Of a stretch of DNA of 64,000 nt, positions 35,098 to 40,639 are shown piece after piece. Position 1 is the stretch's first letter. Every line of letters begins with the position of its first letter. The DNA comes from Thermococcus piezophilus. Lineage in GTDB: Archaea; Methanobacteriota_B; Thermococci; Thermococcales; Thermococcaceae. The position numbers and the translations under genes are program-made. The notes under the pieces are model-generated. The model saw only the letters and a list, made by a program, of their open reading frames with translations. It searched no databases and was not told the DNA's origin. The stretch lies in NCBI RefSeq assembly GCF_001647085.1, contig NZ_CP015520.1, positions 310,001 to 374,000 of the forward strand, in the 5' to 3' direction.

Positions 35098-35450
35098 CAA
35101 CGTTTATAATTGATGAGCTCGTGGAGAGTGGCGAGTTCTCAAGCCGGAGCGAGCTTATGAATCTCCTGAAGAGCTCTGGGAGACATATAAACTCCTCGCG
35201 AAGGAGAGGAGGGTTCCATCGGAGGAAGAAATCGAAAATTTCGGGCCTCGTCAATCCTTGTTGAGCCTGCTGAGCATTTTGAAGTCTCGCCTGACCCGGA
35301 TGACAACAAGTTTTTTGACGCGGTGTATTCAGCCAGGGCGGATTTTCTGATAAGCCTCGACAACTGACGCTGAGGGACGAGAATAGAAAATTCGTTTAGA
35401 ACGGGCACGAGTTTCTAATTCTAACTCCAGCCGAGTTTCTTAAAGTTTAA
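35098..35450 (+). pseudogene. Broken PIN-domain (VapC-like) gene
   Basis: Scattered frames read TFIIDELVESGEFSSRSELM, LWETYKLLAKERRVPSEEEIENF, then VEPAEHFEVSPDPDDNKFFDAVYSARADFLISLDN and LRDENRKF, FLILTPAEFLK. The D-N-x-F-x-D-x-A-x-x-A block and the ADFLISxDxxL...TPxEFL end are PIN nuclease hallmarks. Stops and frameshifts throughout, so it is inactive. Nothing else recognisable lies between 35451 and 35590. Confidence 0.68.
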
Positions 35451-35618
35451 GTTATATTGCAAACTCCTGAACTTTTTATTGCCAAAGTATTAATTAGTGC
35501 ACACAACACAAACATACGAAATGCTGGGCGCTACCACTGGAACAGCCATGATTCAGTTGGACTCTAAAGTTATCCTTTTATTTTTGATTTTTATACTTCC
35601 AAACATAAAGAGGTGGTT

Positions 35619-35813
35619 ATGGTGAAGTATAATGTGACCATTAGGGAGGAGCCATTCGGAGTGTATGTTCACTTAAGAGAAGGTGCTCAAGTCAGGATAG
35701 TATCCCCTGTAGAGGAAGTCGTTTCAGGATTTCTCGAGGAGCCATCAGACATGATGGAAGAGATCTTCGAAGTCTCACTCAGCTCAATGGACACAGTAGA
35801 GACTGGAGACTAG
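35619..35813 (+). CDS. 64-residue RPExFG-type protein beside a radical SAM gene
   Basis: ATG 35619 after AGGTGG; TATA-like tttttatact about 30 bases upstream. The sequence VTIREEPFGVYVHL...VRIVSPVEEVVSGFL recalls the small MftB/PqqD-type peptide-recognition proteins (REEPFG motif, beta strands, then a helix). These present a precursor peptide to a radical SAM enzyme. It could instead be the precursor itself. Open and intact, unlike its neighbours downstream. Family link is by eye and tentative. Confidence 0.5.
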   Translation: MVKYNVTIREEPFGVYVHLREGAQVRIVSPVEEVVSGFLEEPSDMMEEIFEVSLSSMDTVETGD

Positions 35814-35820
35814 AGACTAG

Positions 35821-36745
35821 AATAATAACACCATCCAAAACTCCAGTTTTAGTCCTTCAGCTCCTTATGATGTGTCAGTAGATGTGACCAACGCGTGCAA
35901 TCTATCATACCACCACTGCTATGCAAGTGCTTTGCACCGCGGGAAACATGCCCGCTTTATGGATCTCGTCAGGATATTGTCAAAATTAGATTCAGCAGGA
36001 GCCACTCATCTAGCTATTACTGGAGGAGAACCTTTCCTTCACCCCGAACTGGAGAGAATAATCCGGTACATTTACCTCTCAACAAAACTCAACTTCACTG
36101 TGCTAACGAACGGAGCCATATTCCGCGAGGAGGTTATTAATCTCCTGTCTAAGGTTAGAGAGGTGGGGGGTCTTTTTATAAGCCTCGATGATGTGGACAG
36201 CGAGAACCATAACGAATTCAGGGGAACACCAGGTGCGTGGGAGCAAACTGGAGAATCAATAAGATTAACAAAACCGAAATCCCATTTATGAAATACCAAC
36301 TGGAGCGTCTTGTTGAGAAGTACTCCACAGACACGTTCAAGGTAATGTTAGGTGACTTCGGGTATACATTTACTTGGGAAAAACATCCAGACTCTTTTAG
36401 CACGCTAAAGGAACTAAATTTAGCAGGAGTCTGTGCTGCAAGAAGAACTCTCCACTTGGACAATTCAGGGAATGTATACCTATGTTCTCTGTTTCTAGGC
36501 CATAAGGAGTTCATAGCCGGAAACCTCATTAAACAGGATTTCTATGACTTCTGGGTAAACTAGGAGGTGCTAAATACTTTCAGAAGCAAGAGGGTGATTA
36601 CCTTAGAAAGCACAAACTGTTCAAAATGCCAATTTTCAACATCTGCAAAGGTGGATGTGCATACAACTGATATGCATTTTACGGTACTATCAACCGGAAG
36701 GATCCCCTATGTCCGCACATAGAGAAGGTTCAAATGGGCAACTAA
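35821..36745 (+). pseudogene. Broken radical SAM/SPASM peptide-modifying enzyme gene
   Basis: The core reads VDVTNACNLSYHHCYAS; the second cluster cysteine of CxxxCxxC is a tyrosine (one base, TGC to TAC). LAITGGEPFLHPELERII and FISLDDVDSENHNEFRG follow. The frame shifts near 36240, then gives GVCAARRTLHLDNSGNVYLCSLF (SPASM cysteines). It shifts again near 36630 to FNICKGGCAYN, a stop, then YAFYGTINRKDPLCPHIEKV ending at 36745. No proper start codon. The ancestor was a SPASM enzyme modifying a peptide, sitting between the REEPFG protein and an MFS exporter. Confidence 0.75.
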
Positions 36746-37790
36746 TCTTTCTTCTGTTCTATTTTCTACTCTCCGTCTCCATGTACCTACCGGGACCCTA
36801 TTTCGTACTGTATCTTAACGCGTACGTCGCCCTACCTTGGATTGGTTTGGCATACCCCTTGAACAGAGTCCCCAATCTTCTGCTAGAGTATCCATCCGGG
36901 GTGCTGGCCGATAGGGTTGGAAGGATTAAATCAACGATGTTGGGTTCATTTTTGCTTGGAATGAGTATGCTTGTACTGGTGATTTTTGAAGCACCCAAGG
37001 GTTACATTGTAATTCTCTCCGCCGTACTTGGAAGCGCGGGAATGGCTTTCATCTCCGGTTCCTTAGAGGCCTGAGCGGTGGATACCTTTGGCAGGGCCAA
37101 CTTGAAAAAATTGTTCTCCAAGATGGGAACACTGAAGAACACTGATGGGGTGGTCGTATCAGTGTTAGCTGGGATTTCTGTCAAATATATGGGCCTGAAA
37201 TGGCCACTGTTGCTCTCCGGTGCCTTGGGCGTTCTTTCTCCAGCAATGTTATTTTCCTGAAAGATAACAGGGGCCATCATGACAGCAGAACAATCCTATT
37301 AAAAAATCTAAGGATGTTTAGGGACATCAGATTTTCTATGCTGGTGCTGATTATTCTTTTAGTATCCTCAATGCTCTCAGTGTTCTTTGTGATATGGCCG
37401 ATAACCCTGAGGGATGTGGGCATAGATGAACTTGGGTTTGTGTATTTCGTGCTAATGACCTTTATGGCCATAGGTAGTTACCTCGCAAGAAGGACATCCA
37501 GTGAAATAAGAGGGTACAGATGTTCCTAATTGGTGGCACCGTCATTACATCGACCGTAGCCCTACTGCTAAAATCAAACCCCACCAAACCTACTGCAATG
37601 TTAATATTAGTGCTTCTGTTTGTCTTTGAGATATTAATCGGTTCATACTACGTCTTTATCGCTCACCTGAGGAACTCTGTAATCACTTCTGAGATACGAG
37701 CTTCAGCTATTTCAATGATTTCACTGGTAAACTCCGGGGTTGGTATGGTAGTGCTACCCTTGTTCCTCGCCCTGGGAAATCTAGCCACAA
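36709..37790 (+). pseudogene. Broken MFS exporter gene
   Basis: ATG 36709 lies inside the SPASM gene end. First half: FLLFYFLLSVSMYLPGPYFVLYLNAY, NLLLEYPSGVLADRVGRIKS (MFS loop 2-3 motif). A TGA at 37072-37074 occurs where homologues would have a codon such as TGG (SLEA-stop-AVDTF) and the frame stays open after it. Frameshifts near 37255 and 37515 follow; the last piece has IGSYYVFIAHLRNSVITSEIRASAISMISLVNS. Probable peptide exporter of the decayed cluster. Confidence 0.75.
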
Positions 37791-37896
37791 CAAATAGCAC
37801 AAACAAGCCCTTTCAATGTGAGGAGGAAGTCATACAGAACATACACCCCCTTTTATTGTTATATATCGTTATATATTTTGAACAAACAAACAGAAA

Positions 37897-37906
37897 ACTT
37901 ATAAAC
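37897..37906 (+). promoter_or_regulatory. TATA box of the transglutaminase-like gene
   Basis: aacttataaa, about 35 bases before ATG 37938; GGGTGAT serves as the ribosome binding site. Confidence 0.55.
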
Positions 37907-37937
37907 TTTTAACACCAACTTATATTGGGTGATATAG

Positions 37938-39314
37938 ATGATTAAAGTAATATTAAAACCCATTGCATTTATTTTTATCATCTTTCTTATTGTAGGAAAT
38001 TATACTGCACCTGCTGAGGTTACTAGGAGTAATGTTCAAGTTGATGGAGCTTTAGGAGTATTATACAATATAGGAAAATTCATTGTAACACCATTCAAGG
38101 CAGTATATTACAGGTACCAAATTGAGAAGGGAGAAACAGTTATTAGCATGGAAGTTGGAACTGAAAAATCTAAAATTTATACACCTGACGATTACATTGA
38201 AGACTACTTTGAATTCCAAGGAAAACTATCCAAGTATTACAAGCCACTCAGCCAACCAAAAATAGGAATCAAACCAAACTTTACACTTAAGAAAATTGAA
38301 CATGGACAAGAAGGAGCCGATATGTGGTACTCTTTTACAGCAAAAGACTTGGTTGATGACCTGCAAAGCAAACCAGTACAAGAAGTCTTTAAGGCCATCC
38401 TGGATGCAATGTATGGGCAGTATGATAAAAAAATCATCAATGAATATGTCAAAAAAGACTACTGGTGTGGAAGGGGAGTATGTGATTTCGATGGGGTAGG
38501 AGCCTTCAAGCGAATCAAAAGCTTAGAAGAGCTCAACCTTCCCCCAACCCCAGAAATCCTGAGAGAATACACATTTATAAACTTATTCTACTTTGTTAAA
38601 GGGAGAGATGGTAATGACCCCACCCTGCCTTCAAAAGCAATTCTAGGTAAACCAATAGACTGTGATGGGTACGTCCTCTACCACTATGCAATGATTTACA
38701 ACATAAACAGGTTACTGGGGATTAAGGCTGAATATTATCAAGTTGATGTCTACCCATCAGGGAGTGGTAATGGTCATTCAGAGTTGTTTGTGTACTACCC
38801 AGAAACTGGAACTTGGGAGATTTACAGTTACTTTGTTAGTGCCAGTTACTTTTACAAGTACAGGGGTGGAGTGAATGTAGAGGCTTATAGAAAATTGATA
38901 AAAGCTAAAAAGATTCATGCATTTGAATATGGGCATGGTTATCCAAGTAACGGAGATTTACCCACTTCCCAGTATGCTGTCACCTTCAGGGACGTTGGGA
39001 TTTCAATGCTTTCAGAAGTGTATGTGCCTGCTGGGAAGATACAATTCAACAGTTTTGAAGAGGCACTGTACTGGTACTTGAGCCACCAGAAGCTGTATCA
39101 TACAGATAAATTCTGGTTTGAAGTGTGGAAGCTCCCAACACCAGATGACCCATACTTGTACTATGTTAAAAACTGGAGTGACAGGGTTATATCTATCAGT
39201 GAGTTAAAACAGATACTTGTTGAAAGGGGATTGTACAGGGAAATTAATGTTTACATTAATAAGGGTAGGGCTCCAGAAAAGTTGGGAGACCCGAGCTGGG
39301 TTGTTAATGATTAA
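37938..39314 (+). CDS. Exported transglutaminase-like protein
   Basis: 458 residues with a signal peptide (KVILKPIAFIFIIFLIVGNYTAPA). The centre has GKPIDCDGYVLYHYAMIYNI, LLGIKAEYYQVDVYP and NGHSELFVYYPETGTW. This is Cys, His and a following acidic/aromatic block in the spacing of transglutaminase/cysteine-protease-fold proteins. A CGRGVCDF pair lies earlier and could form a disulfide. Low-GC codon use unlike the flanking host genes suggests recent acquisition. Role outside the cell unknown. Confidence 0.7.
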   Translation: MIKVILKPIAFIFIIFLIVGNYTAPAEVTRSNVQVDGALGVLYNIGKFIVTPFKAVYYRYQIEKGETVISMEVGTEKSKIYTPDDYIEDYFEFQGKLSKYYKPLSQPKIGIKPNFTLKKIEHGQEGADMWYSFTAKDLVDDLQSKPVQEVFKAILDAMYGQYDKKIINEYVKKDYWCGRGVCDFDGVGAFKRIKSLEELNLPPTPEILREYTFINLFYFVKGRDGNDPTLPSKAILGKPIDCDGYVLYHYAMIYNINRLLGIKAEYYQVDVYPSGSGNGHSELFVYYPETGTWEIYSYFVSASYFYKYRGGVNVEAYRKLIKAKKIHAFEYGHGYPSNGDLPTSQYAVTFRDVGISMLSEVYVPAGKIQFNSFEEALYWYLSHQKLYHTDKFWFEVWKLPTPDDPYLYYVKNWSDRVISISELKQILVERGLYREINVYINKGRAPEKLGDPSWVVND

Positions 39315-39328
39315 ACAAAAGTTAAGAG

Positions 39329-39727
39329 TTAAGGATTATAGACTGGAGTTCCTTTCTTTATCCATTTTACAAAGTTTTTGTTGTGCATTAGATTATAAGT
39401 GATGGTTATGAGTGAGTACAGTGTTGGGAAAAGGTAGGTGGTGACTTTGGTTAATAGGTCGGGGGTGGTGGGTTTTAAGCCCAATGGGATTATTACTATG
39501 CTCAAACTGAGGGTTAGGAGGATGTTTGCTGTGGTTAGTCTGTTGTTCCAGGTTGTTTCAAAGGTTAGTATCAGGTTGACTGTGAGTGCTGTAAGGTAGA
39601 GGATGTTGAATAATAACCATTCAATTTGGCCCGTTTTAATTGAATTGTAAGTGTTTATTATTGGGATTGCATATAAGAGAACTGTGGTATACATAAGAAG
39701 TATGTCTGTGATTATAGTTATCTTCAT
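39329..39727 (-). CDS. Four-span membrane protein, unknown
   Basis: 132 residues on the minus strand with four to five hydrophobic helices and a short basic C-terminus (NFVKWIKKGTPVYNP). Threonine- and isoleucine-rich, AT-rich codons. Convergent with the transglutaminase-like gene. Family unknown. Confidence 0.58.
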   Translation of the reverse strand: MKITIITDILLMYTTVLLYAIPIINTYNSIKTGQIEWLLFNILYLTALTVNLILTFETTWNNRLTTANILLTLSLSIVIIPLGLKPTTPDLLTKVTTYLFPTLYSLITITYNLMHNKNFVKWIKKGTPVYNP

Positions 39728-39848
39728 ACTGTCTTTCCCATAATTTTATTTTCTATTTTGCTTAAAAAATTAAATTTTGTTTGTGTTCAGAATTTGAGAT
39801 ACTTTTGACACTGTATGAATGTGTAAAATTGTGTAGTGCTTGATATGC

Positions 39849-40070
39849 TTATTCACTTAGGGCTCTTTCTATATGCTTTCTCATCAGTCTTTTTTCATCT
39901 GGTTGAGTGTTTGTTATGCTTTTGCTTATCAGTTTTTTGAGGAGTCTTTTAACTTCTTCTTCAAGGGCTTCGTAATAACTGGATGAGATTTGCATATATT
40001 TACCATATTTTTTTAGTTCTTCTTTAATCATTTGTTCAACTGGTGATTTTTTAATAATCTCTGTTTTCAT
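39849..40070 (-). CDS. Small helical protein, possibly histone-fold-like
   Basis: 73 residues; ATG 40070 follows GGTGA (ATG 40082 is an alternative). Sequence pattern ISSSYYEALEEEVKRLLKKLI ... DEKRLMRKHIERAL resembles the helix 1 - long helix - helix 3 layout of archaeal histone-fold proteins, with a charged leader. The similarity is faint; it may be another helical DNA-binding protein or an antitoxin. Confidence 0.45.
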   Translation of the reverse strand: MKTEIIKKSPVEQMIKEELKKYGKYMQISSSYYEALEEEVKRLLKKLISKSITNTQPDEKRLMRKHIERALSE

Positions 40071-40262
40071 TTTATTCACCATTTTATTATACTGAAAATC
40101 AGTCTTAGCAATTGAGGGGAGTGTTTATAAACTATTACTTTGTACTGTGAGTGATTTAACAGTGAAATTGAGGTTGGCTTTACCTGGTAAAGTAATTGTG
40201 GTTGGTATGGCTGTAATTGGAATTAGTGATGTGGCTAATCAACTATCCTTTGTGAGTAAAAG

Positions 40263-40271
40263 TTTTATAAG
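40263..40271 (+). promoter_or_regulatory. TATA-like box before the GC-rich hairpin RNA candidate
   Basis: ttttataag, which would start transcription at about 40290-40297, just at the foot of the structured segment. Confidence 0.4.
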
Positions 40272-40276
40272 TCTTT

Positions 40277-40450
40277 GTGATTAGAGGTGAGTGTATATGG
40301 GGACTTGGGGTCGCCCTGAGTGGGGGTGAGACCGATGATTTACGCCCCAGTGAACCCAGAGGGGAGTTGAGGCTGATGAAACCCAAGTCCGTTGTGGGGG
40401 TGGATTTGAACGGGAGGACTTTCACTCACATATCAACCCAAAACCTCACG
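40277..40450 (+). mobile_element. Probable 3' remnant of an IS605/IS1341-type tnpB with omega-RNA-like structure
   Basis: A GC-rich island in AT-rich surroundings. An open frame reads WGLGVALSGGETDDLRPSEP then RGELRLMKPKSVVGVDLNG, similar in style to the poorly conserved C-terminal tail of archaeal TnpB proteins that overlaps the guide RNA. The segment folds: GGACTTGGG (40301-40309 region) pairs with CCCAAGTCC (40381-40390 region). No TnpB catalytic core or TnpA is present. Alternative: a free-standing structured non-coding RNA. Confidence 0.45.
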
Positions 40451-40539
40451 ACGGACAGACCCCTTCGAGTGGATTATATGTTCACTCCTATTGGTTTTTG
40501 GCATGATTGTATTTGAACTCTGGAAAACGAAATACACAC

Positions 40540-40639
40540 AGCAGGCTGGCTCAAGGCATTGAGTGCAATCGAAGCTCTCACCGGTGCCGTCTTCATGGCG
40601 CTTATCGTCGCCGTCATAGCTCGCAAATGGATGCGCTAA
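40540..40639 (+). pseudogene. C-terminal fragment of an ion-channel-like gene
   Basis: The last 32 codons read WLKALSAIEALTGAVFMALI then VAVIARKWMR. This resembles the final pore-lining helix and basic end of two-span potassium-channel-type proteins. No upstream part remains; it abuts the tnpB-like remnant, which may have replaced the rest. Confidence 0.5.

Follow-up and report, generated by a model that had tools for sequence, protein, structure and literature searches.

A probably pseudogenised radical SAM/SPASM RiPP cassette in Thermococcus piezophilus, intact in two relatives

What was once encoded around positions 35619-37790 of the 64,000-nucleotide stretch of Thermococcus piezophilus DNA analysed here (the window), and can any of it still function? 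A first-pass annotation, made from the letters alone, saw in this region the ruins of a cluster for a RiPP (a ribosomally made, post-translationally modified peptide), in the order small protein, radical SAM enzyme and exporter, with one small gene still intact. Comparison with two related hyperthermophilic archaea, congeners that carry the cluster intact (genomes G021 and G007, the two intact copies available), makes it very probable that the region is a pseudogenised RiPP cassette of Thermococcus-type archaea, a dead set of precursor, radical SAM/SPASM maturase and exporter. The intact form consists of a 26-residue precursor, a maturase of about 430 residues and an MFS protein, the start of the MFS gene overlapping the end of the maturase gene (in G021, L004:11887-13056 and L004:10634-11923). 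All three genes are lost in the window. The ruins are real but the boundaries first drawn around them are too short, since a precursor remnant lies upstream and the 3' end of the MFS gene lies past a large insertion. The features of the locus, with the intact precursor genes used for comparison, are:

35109..35438, plus strand: remnants of vapB (RHH antitoxin, about 35109-35239) and vapC (PIN toxin, about 35233-35438), located by tblastn with G021 proteins
35520..35567, plus strand: precursor-peptide gene remnant, core NAGRYHWNSHDSVGL and stop, aligned directly with the intact 26-codon ORFs of G021 and G007
35619..35813, plus strand: 5' end of the gene for the radical SAM/SPASM maturase, with native residues 1-61, then three out-of-register residues and TAG; 79% and 73% identity to the intact enzymes
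35848..36291, plus strand: radical SAM core fragment, residues 73 to about 215, Pfam Radical_SAM E 2.4e-14, 85% identity to G021; ends in TGA after frameshifts
36264..36740, plus strand: SPASM half of the maturase, residues 269-429; 78% identity to G021 residues 269-393 and, in another frame, 63% to 375-428 (tblastn with G021 proteins)
36709..37786, plus strand: codons 1-362 of the gene for the MFS transporter, 73-75% identical to the intact G021 MFS, and 63% near the end, by tblastn; also aligned three ways with G112 and G021
37787..40461, no strand: insert of about 2.7 kb that splits the MFS gene after codon 362, where the sequence is uninterrupted in G112 (L018) and G021
40464..40544, plus strand: 3' end of the MFS gene, 27 codons moved away by the insert; matches residues 363-389 of the G021 MFS by tblastn and aligns with G112
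L004:10488-10568, plus strand: intact precursor ORF of G021, 26 codons
L005:4611-4691, minus strand: intact precursor ORF of G007, 26 codons

The small gene thought to have survived is the N-terminus of the maturase. The ORF and its REEPFG motif exist as described, with 64 residues from ATG 35619 (66 from GTG 35613) to the TAG at 35811-35813, but they do not make a separate intact gene, and the window copy retains no intact gene at all. Among relatives, a search matched these residues in no more than two further genomes, in each case inside an open frame (441 and 436 codons), the identity being 79% to residues 1-61 of the continuous G021 enzyme and 73% to residues 1-60 of that of G007. These enzymes, of 429 and 431 residues, are 80% identical to each other. 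The stop was created by a 14-bp insertion at 35797, which places the TAG after codon 64.

The remainder of the maturase gene is broken in the way first described. CNLSYHHC, at 35896-35919, has Tyr (codon 35908-35910) in place of the second (middle) cluster cysteine of CxxxCxxC, and the reading frame is disrupted by deletions of 1 nt at 35846, 4 nt at 36254 and 168 nt after 36291 (with TGA). The SPASM half contains a TAG at 36561-36563, a 1-nt deletion at 36634 and a TGA at 36668-36670, and scores slightly under the Pfam threshold. The intact G021 enzyme is over the cut-off for both Pfam families (Radical_SAM, 81.7 bits; SPASM, 42.6 bits) and has CNLSCKHC at residues 89-96. The seven-cysteine SPASM motif has been defined as CX9-15GX4CXnCX2CX5CX3CXnC (PMC5715301); in the intact enzyme it is complete at residues 325-419, in the form CX12GX4C...CX2CX5CX3C...C, as is CX3CX2C. 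Both motifs thus place the intact G021 enzyme among the radical SAM/SPASM proteins, whereas the window copy, with its middle cysteine changed to tyrosine and its frame broken, lacks them. Substitutions private to the window number 15, 14 and 41 at codon positions 1, 2 and 3, against 12, 9 and 45 on the G021 branch; from this third-position bias we infer that selection acted over much of the window branch and that decay of the window copy would be fairly recent.

The MFS gene, whose start overlaps the maturase end in the window also, had likewise been recognised as carrying TGA and frameshifts: there is a TGA at 37072-37074, a 1-nt deletion that leads to a TGA at 37258-37260, and further deletions of 6 nt and 1 nt. 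The fragment still matches Pfam at E 4e-05; the intact G021 protein matches MFS_1 at E 1.1e-25.

Intact relatives lacking a peptide partner were looked for, but in each of the two intact relatives a short, conserved gene for a peptide sits immediately 5' of the maturase gene, and the idea of a ruined RiPP-like cluster is borne out. When the 220 bases that precede the enzyme gene were aligned for the window, G021 and G007, both intact loci showed a 26-codon ORF with the consensus MK(R/K)KLKI(K/R)KL(T/S)NAGCYHWNSHDSVGL, that is, a basic leader (MKxKLKIxKL) followed by an invariant core; the peptides of the two genomes are MKRKLKIKKLTNAGCYHWNSHDSVGL and MKKKLKIRKLSNAGCYHWNSHDSVGL. A ribosome-binding site precedes the ORF (GGAGGTGA or GAGGTA in the two intact genomes), and the gap from its stop to the maturase start is about 65 bases at both loci. 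The two ORFs differ at 16 nucleotides, 12 of them at third positions, which leaves nine codons changed silently, three conservative amino acid changes and an unchanged core, the most conserved part of the ORF at the amino acid level. None of 20000 random placements of 16 changes gave so few amino acid changes. This pattern points to an ORF that evolves as a protein, under purifying selection. Thus, as is characteristic of RiPPs, a short encoded peptide is conserved beside a modifying enzyme in G021 and G007. In the window the start codon, ribosome-binding site and leader of the precursor have been deleted and the core cysteine changed to arginine; the DNA kept at 35520-35567 (AATGCTGGGCGC...CTCTAA) encodes NAGRYHWNSHDSVGL and a stop. 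A first reading of the upstream DNA in frame +1, as 'ATTGTAM', was dropped: the synonymous changes sit in the 26-codon frame and the other two frames have stops.

The cassette of the window and that of G021 are flanked on one side by an amino-acid-kinase gene with vapBC and on the other by an NADH-oxidase-like gene. The vapBC pair is a neighbour of the cluster and not part of the peptide pathway; it is intact at this place in G021 (Pfam RHH_1 and PIN_3), and its window counterpart is interrupted by frame breaks and an in-frame stop. In G007 the cassette is at another place, beside a second candidate RiPP cassette. The locus is also damaged in G112, a MAG from another genus of the family with 92% DNA identity here (L018). 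In it the kinase gene, at its end, runs straight into the maturase at about codon 303, so that vapBC, the precursor and the greater part of the maturase are missing, and the MFS gene is frameshifted by a 5-bp deletion of its own. The locus has decayed independently in the window and in G112. The cassette may thus be mobile and dispensable and have been lost on two or more occasions, and independent loss in two relatives is as expected for an accessory trait of competition or signalling.

The cassette is rare. Among 94 Thermococcales genomes, precursor core and enzyme occur together in the same three (the window genome, G021 and G007), and a fourth, G112, has remnants of the enzyme and MFS genes only. 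The precursor pattern found the three enzyme-bearing genomes and two chance matches, and a reversed control pattern gave one chance match; the two chance matches of the precursor pattern, in G085 and G028 and with two mismatches each, were set aside since the tryptophan is lost. A search of 115 genomes of the phylum at E 1e-50 gave no further copy of the enzyme, and scanning with a peptide pattern a collection of about 85,000 species genomes, which may omit near relatives, also gave none. Scanning that whole collection with the precursor pattern gave 22 matches, where an estimated 15 or so are expected by chance, and none had the precursor layout. Viral contigs gave 0 matches, and plasmids gave remote radical SAM proteins only, with less than 30% identity among the matches listed.

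The likeness of the 64-residue protein to MftB or PqqD, suggested in the first-pass annotation from the REEPFG motif, found no support. The intact maturase has a 72-residue N-terminal extension ahead of the radical SAM domain; profile and PDB matches start only at residues 73-83, and the N-terminal domain is not alignable. Residues 1-64 matched no PqqD, MftB or other RRE family in Pfam or NCBIfam at E values up to 10, the sole match being IF-2 alpha, at chance level. A PF05402 scan gave no match at the window-type locus, a PDB profile search for RRE or PqqD likeness of the N-terminus returned nothing usable, and hhalign against the PqqD domains of sister enzymes (see below) aligned only about 10 columns, around REExFG, with a probability of about 1%. 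The AlphaFold single-sequence model of the extension, with three short strands at pLDDT 50, is too poor for comparison with the winged fold of three strands and three helices that marks an RRE. That the extension is a diverged RRE is an unproven possibility.

Besides heme-pathway enzymes, the best NCBIfam and PDB matches of the intact enzyme are peptide maturases (WgkB, mycofactocin, AlbA, StsB, SkfB, SuiB and CteB), all far below equivalog cut-offs. The tryglysin wgkABCD operon of streptococci, a RaS-RiPP operon, encodes a 21-aa precursor, a radical SAM/SPASM maturase as the next gene, an RRE function and a transporter downstream (PMC8092268). The window-type cassette is similar in its very short precursor (26 residues), its maturase as next gene and its downstream transporter; the WgkB profile is among the best for its maturase, and the sister precursor cores also end in WGK. 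However, the window-type core, NAGCYHWNSHDSVGL, is without WGK, a separate gene for an RRE is missing, and no family matches the N-terminal extension; with NF050035 at 151 bits against a cut-off of 650, the enzyme lies outside the tryglysin/WgkB family. The best account is that the cassette would work like tryglysin-type operons without being one of them. Sactipeptide and ranthipeptide maturases (AlbA, SkfB, StsB, CteB) belong to the radical SAM/SPASM enzymes and bind the leader through an N-terminal region. By sequence, the PDB entry that the maturase matches best is SkfB (E 7.5e-23), followed by SuiB and CteB, and the one invariant cysteine of the window-type core is a candidate thioether former, but the core has only this single cysteine and the N-terminal domains do not align. 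The mycofactocin system MftB/MftC also uses a radical SAM/SPASM peptide maturase, and the MftC profile scores 135 bits, though this is below its cut-off of 265 bits and the N-terminus has no MftB match.

In the intact cluster, the radical enzyme is likely to cross-link the 26-residue peptide and the MFS protein is likely to be an exporter. Leader binding, cross-link chemistry, export of the peptide and biological role may all four be inferred along the following lines. The N-terminal extension of the maturase would bind the precursor leader; the CxxxCxxC cluster would cleave SAM to give a 5'-deoxyadenosyl radical, which would abstract hydrogen from a core residue; and the two auxiliary SPASM clusters would take up the electron while the cross-link forms. 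Candidates for the cross-link are the invariant Cys, Tyr, His, Trp, Asn and Asp of the core. The MFS protein would then export the product, perhaps as an antagonist of relatives or as a signal.

Cassettes of the same order and layout occur in G016, G025 and G078, with a short conserved ORF upstream of an N-terminally extended radical SAM/SPASM enzyme and an adjacent MFS gene. They differ from the window type in having, at the position of its N-terminus, a true PqqD domain with VxRxExFGG, and an unrelated precursor with the core (E/Q)W(T/A)(L/I)W(S/G)(V/L)WGK. In their radical SAM/SPASM part these fusion enzymes share 28-30% identity with the window-type enzyme, and homology of their MFS proteins to that of G021 is not detectable by blastp. 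WgkB (NF050035) is the best NCBIfam match for two of the three enzymes (175-180 bits) and the second best for the third, far below its cut-off. The exact pattern WxxWxxWGK was found in these three genomes, at a second place in G016 and in G093, and the reversed control gave 0 matches. The corresponding candidate RiPP family, the third of the set and one that recalls tryglysin, has 32-38-aa precursors (L070, L071, L072, L080 and L081), and the fusion and MFS genes were seen in three of its four genomes. The second candidate cassette, in G007 and G020 (L005:7678-9139, minus strand, and L074/L048), has the 31-aa precursor MVKTILSRLISGPTPAGGCCNRSQRCKNLLF upstream of a radical SAM/SPASM gene nearest to CefB/geopeptide maturases, with an ABC ATPase and two ABC-2 permeases downstream; its precursor is identical at 31/31 residues in the two genomes despite many silent changes. 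A reading of the window cassette as precursor, maturase and exporter is much more likely in the light of these independent sister cases.

For that reading, the gene order, the coding conservation of the precursor, the complete CxxxCxxC and seven-cysteine SPASM motifs and the co-occurrence of peptide and enzyme are all observed; against it count an N-terminal extension that sequence comparison does not recognise as an RRE, AhbD as the best single NCBIfam match, the small number of intact copies (two) and the lack of a protease gene for leader removal adjoining the cluster. An enzyme acting instead on a small molecule, in a heme, cofactor or sugar pathway (as AhbD or NirJ), with the upstream ORF a regulatory leader peptide or incidental, is unlikely. 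AhbD heme b synthase is the top NCBIfam score of the intact enzyme, and MFS transporters export many small molecules, the best MFS names here being drug efflux pumps. However, the AhbD score (160.9 bits) is far under the cut-off of 500, which leaves the enzyme outside AhbD, and the most conserved part of the ORF is a core with conserved Cys, Trp, His and Tyr rather than the codon runs of an attenuator. The region has no Rfam element, and the sister family repeats this layout around another peptide that is just as conserved.

It is highly improbable that the 64-residue ORF encodes a small protein conserved in its own right, of RRE, PqqD or MftB type and still functional in the window. The ORF does have 64 codons, with a start and a sequence resembling an RBS; its REEPFG does recall PqqD-type sequences, and the sister enzymes have a genuine PqqD domain there. 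Yet both intact relatives read through into the radical SAM domain, the last three residues before the inserted stop are out of register, no RRE family matches, no stand-alone form occurs in the 94 genomes and, with maturase, exporter and precursor dead, no partner is left. The notion that the lesions are assembly or sequencing errors in a cluster that is really intact deserves least credence of all: several are single-base changes in runs, but the damage also takes in the 168-nt deletion, the loss of precursor leader and ribosome-binding site, the 14-bp and 2.7-kb insertions, the Cys-to-Tyr change and the decay of vapBC, and G112, a close relative at this locus, shows an independent loss of vapBC, of the precursor and of the greater part of the maturase.

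A pseudogenised RiPP cassette thus being favoured, its wider setting can be considered. RiPP pathways of Thermococcales appear to be almost undescribed; the first-pass annotation had called them rarely described there, and a literature search, open-access only, found no papers on RiPPs in the order. The locus has led to two further precursor families in Thermococcales. A bolder reading, that there are several unrelated, undescribed RiPP families in the order (with CYHWNSHDSVGL, WxxWxxWGK and GGCCNRSQRC cores) and that the CYHW family carries a cross-link of a new kind, the work of a hyperthermophilic maturase whose leader-binding domain has diverged, is tentative and would sooner be doubted than accepted. 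Thermococcales include genetically tractable hyperthermophiles, and the two intact genomes provide a short precursor-maturase pair that can be tested. A thermostable peptide cross-linking enzyme, if it is one, would be useful in practice. The copy in the window is dead.

The insert in the MFS gene lacks clear terminal repeats, a target duplication or repeats marking a known transposon, is present as a single copy in its own genome and has no Pfam match for its ORFs. These ORFs encode 458 aa (plus strand) with a hydrophobic N-terminus, a hydrophobic 132 aa (minus strand) and 77 aa (minus strand).
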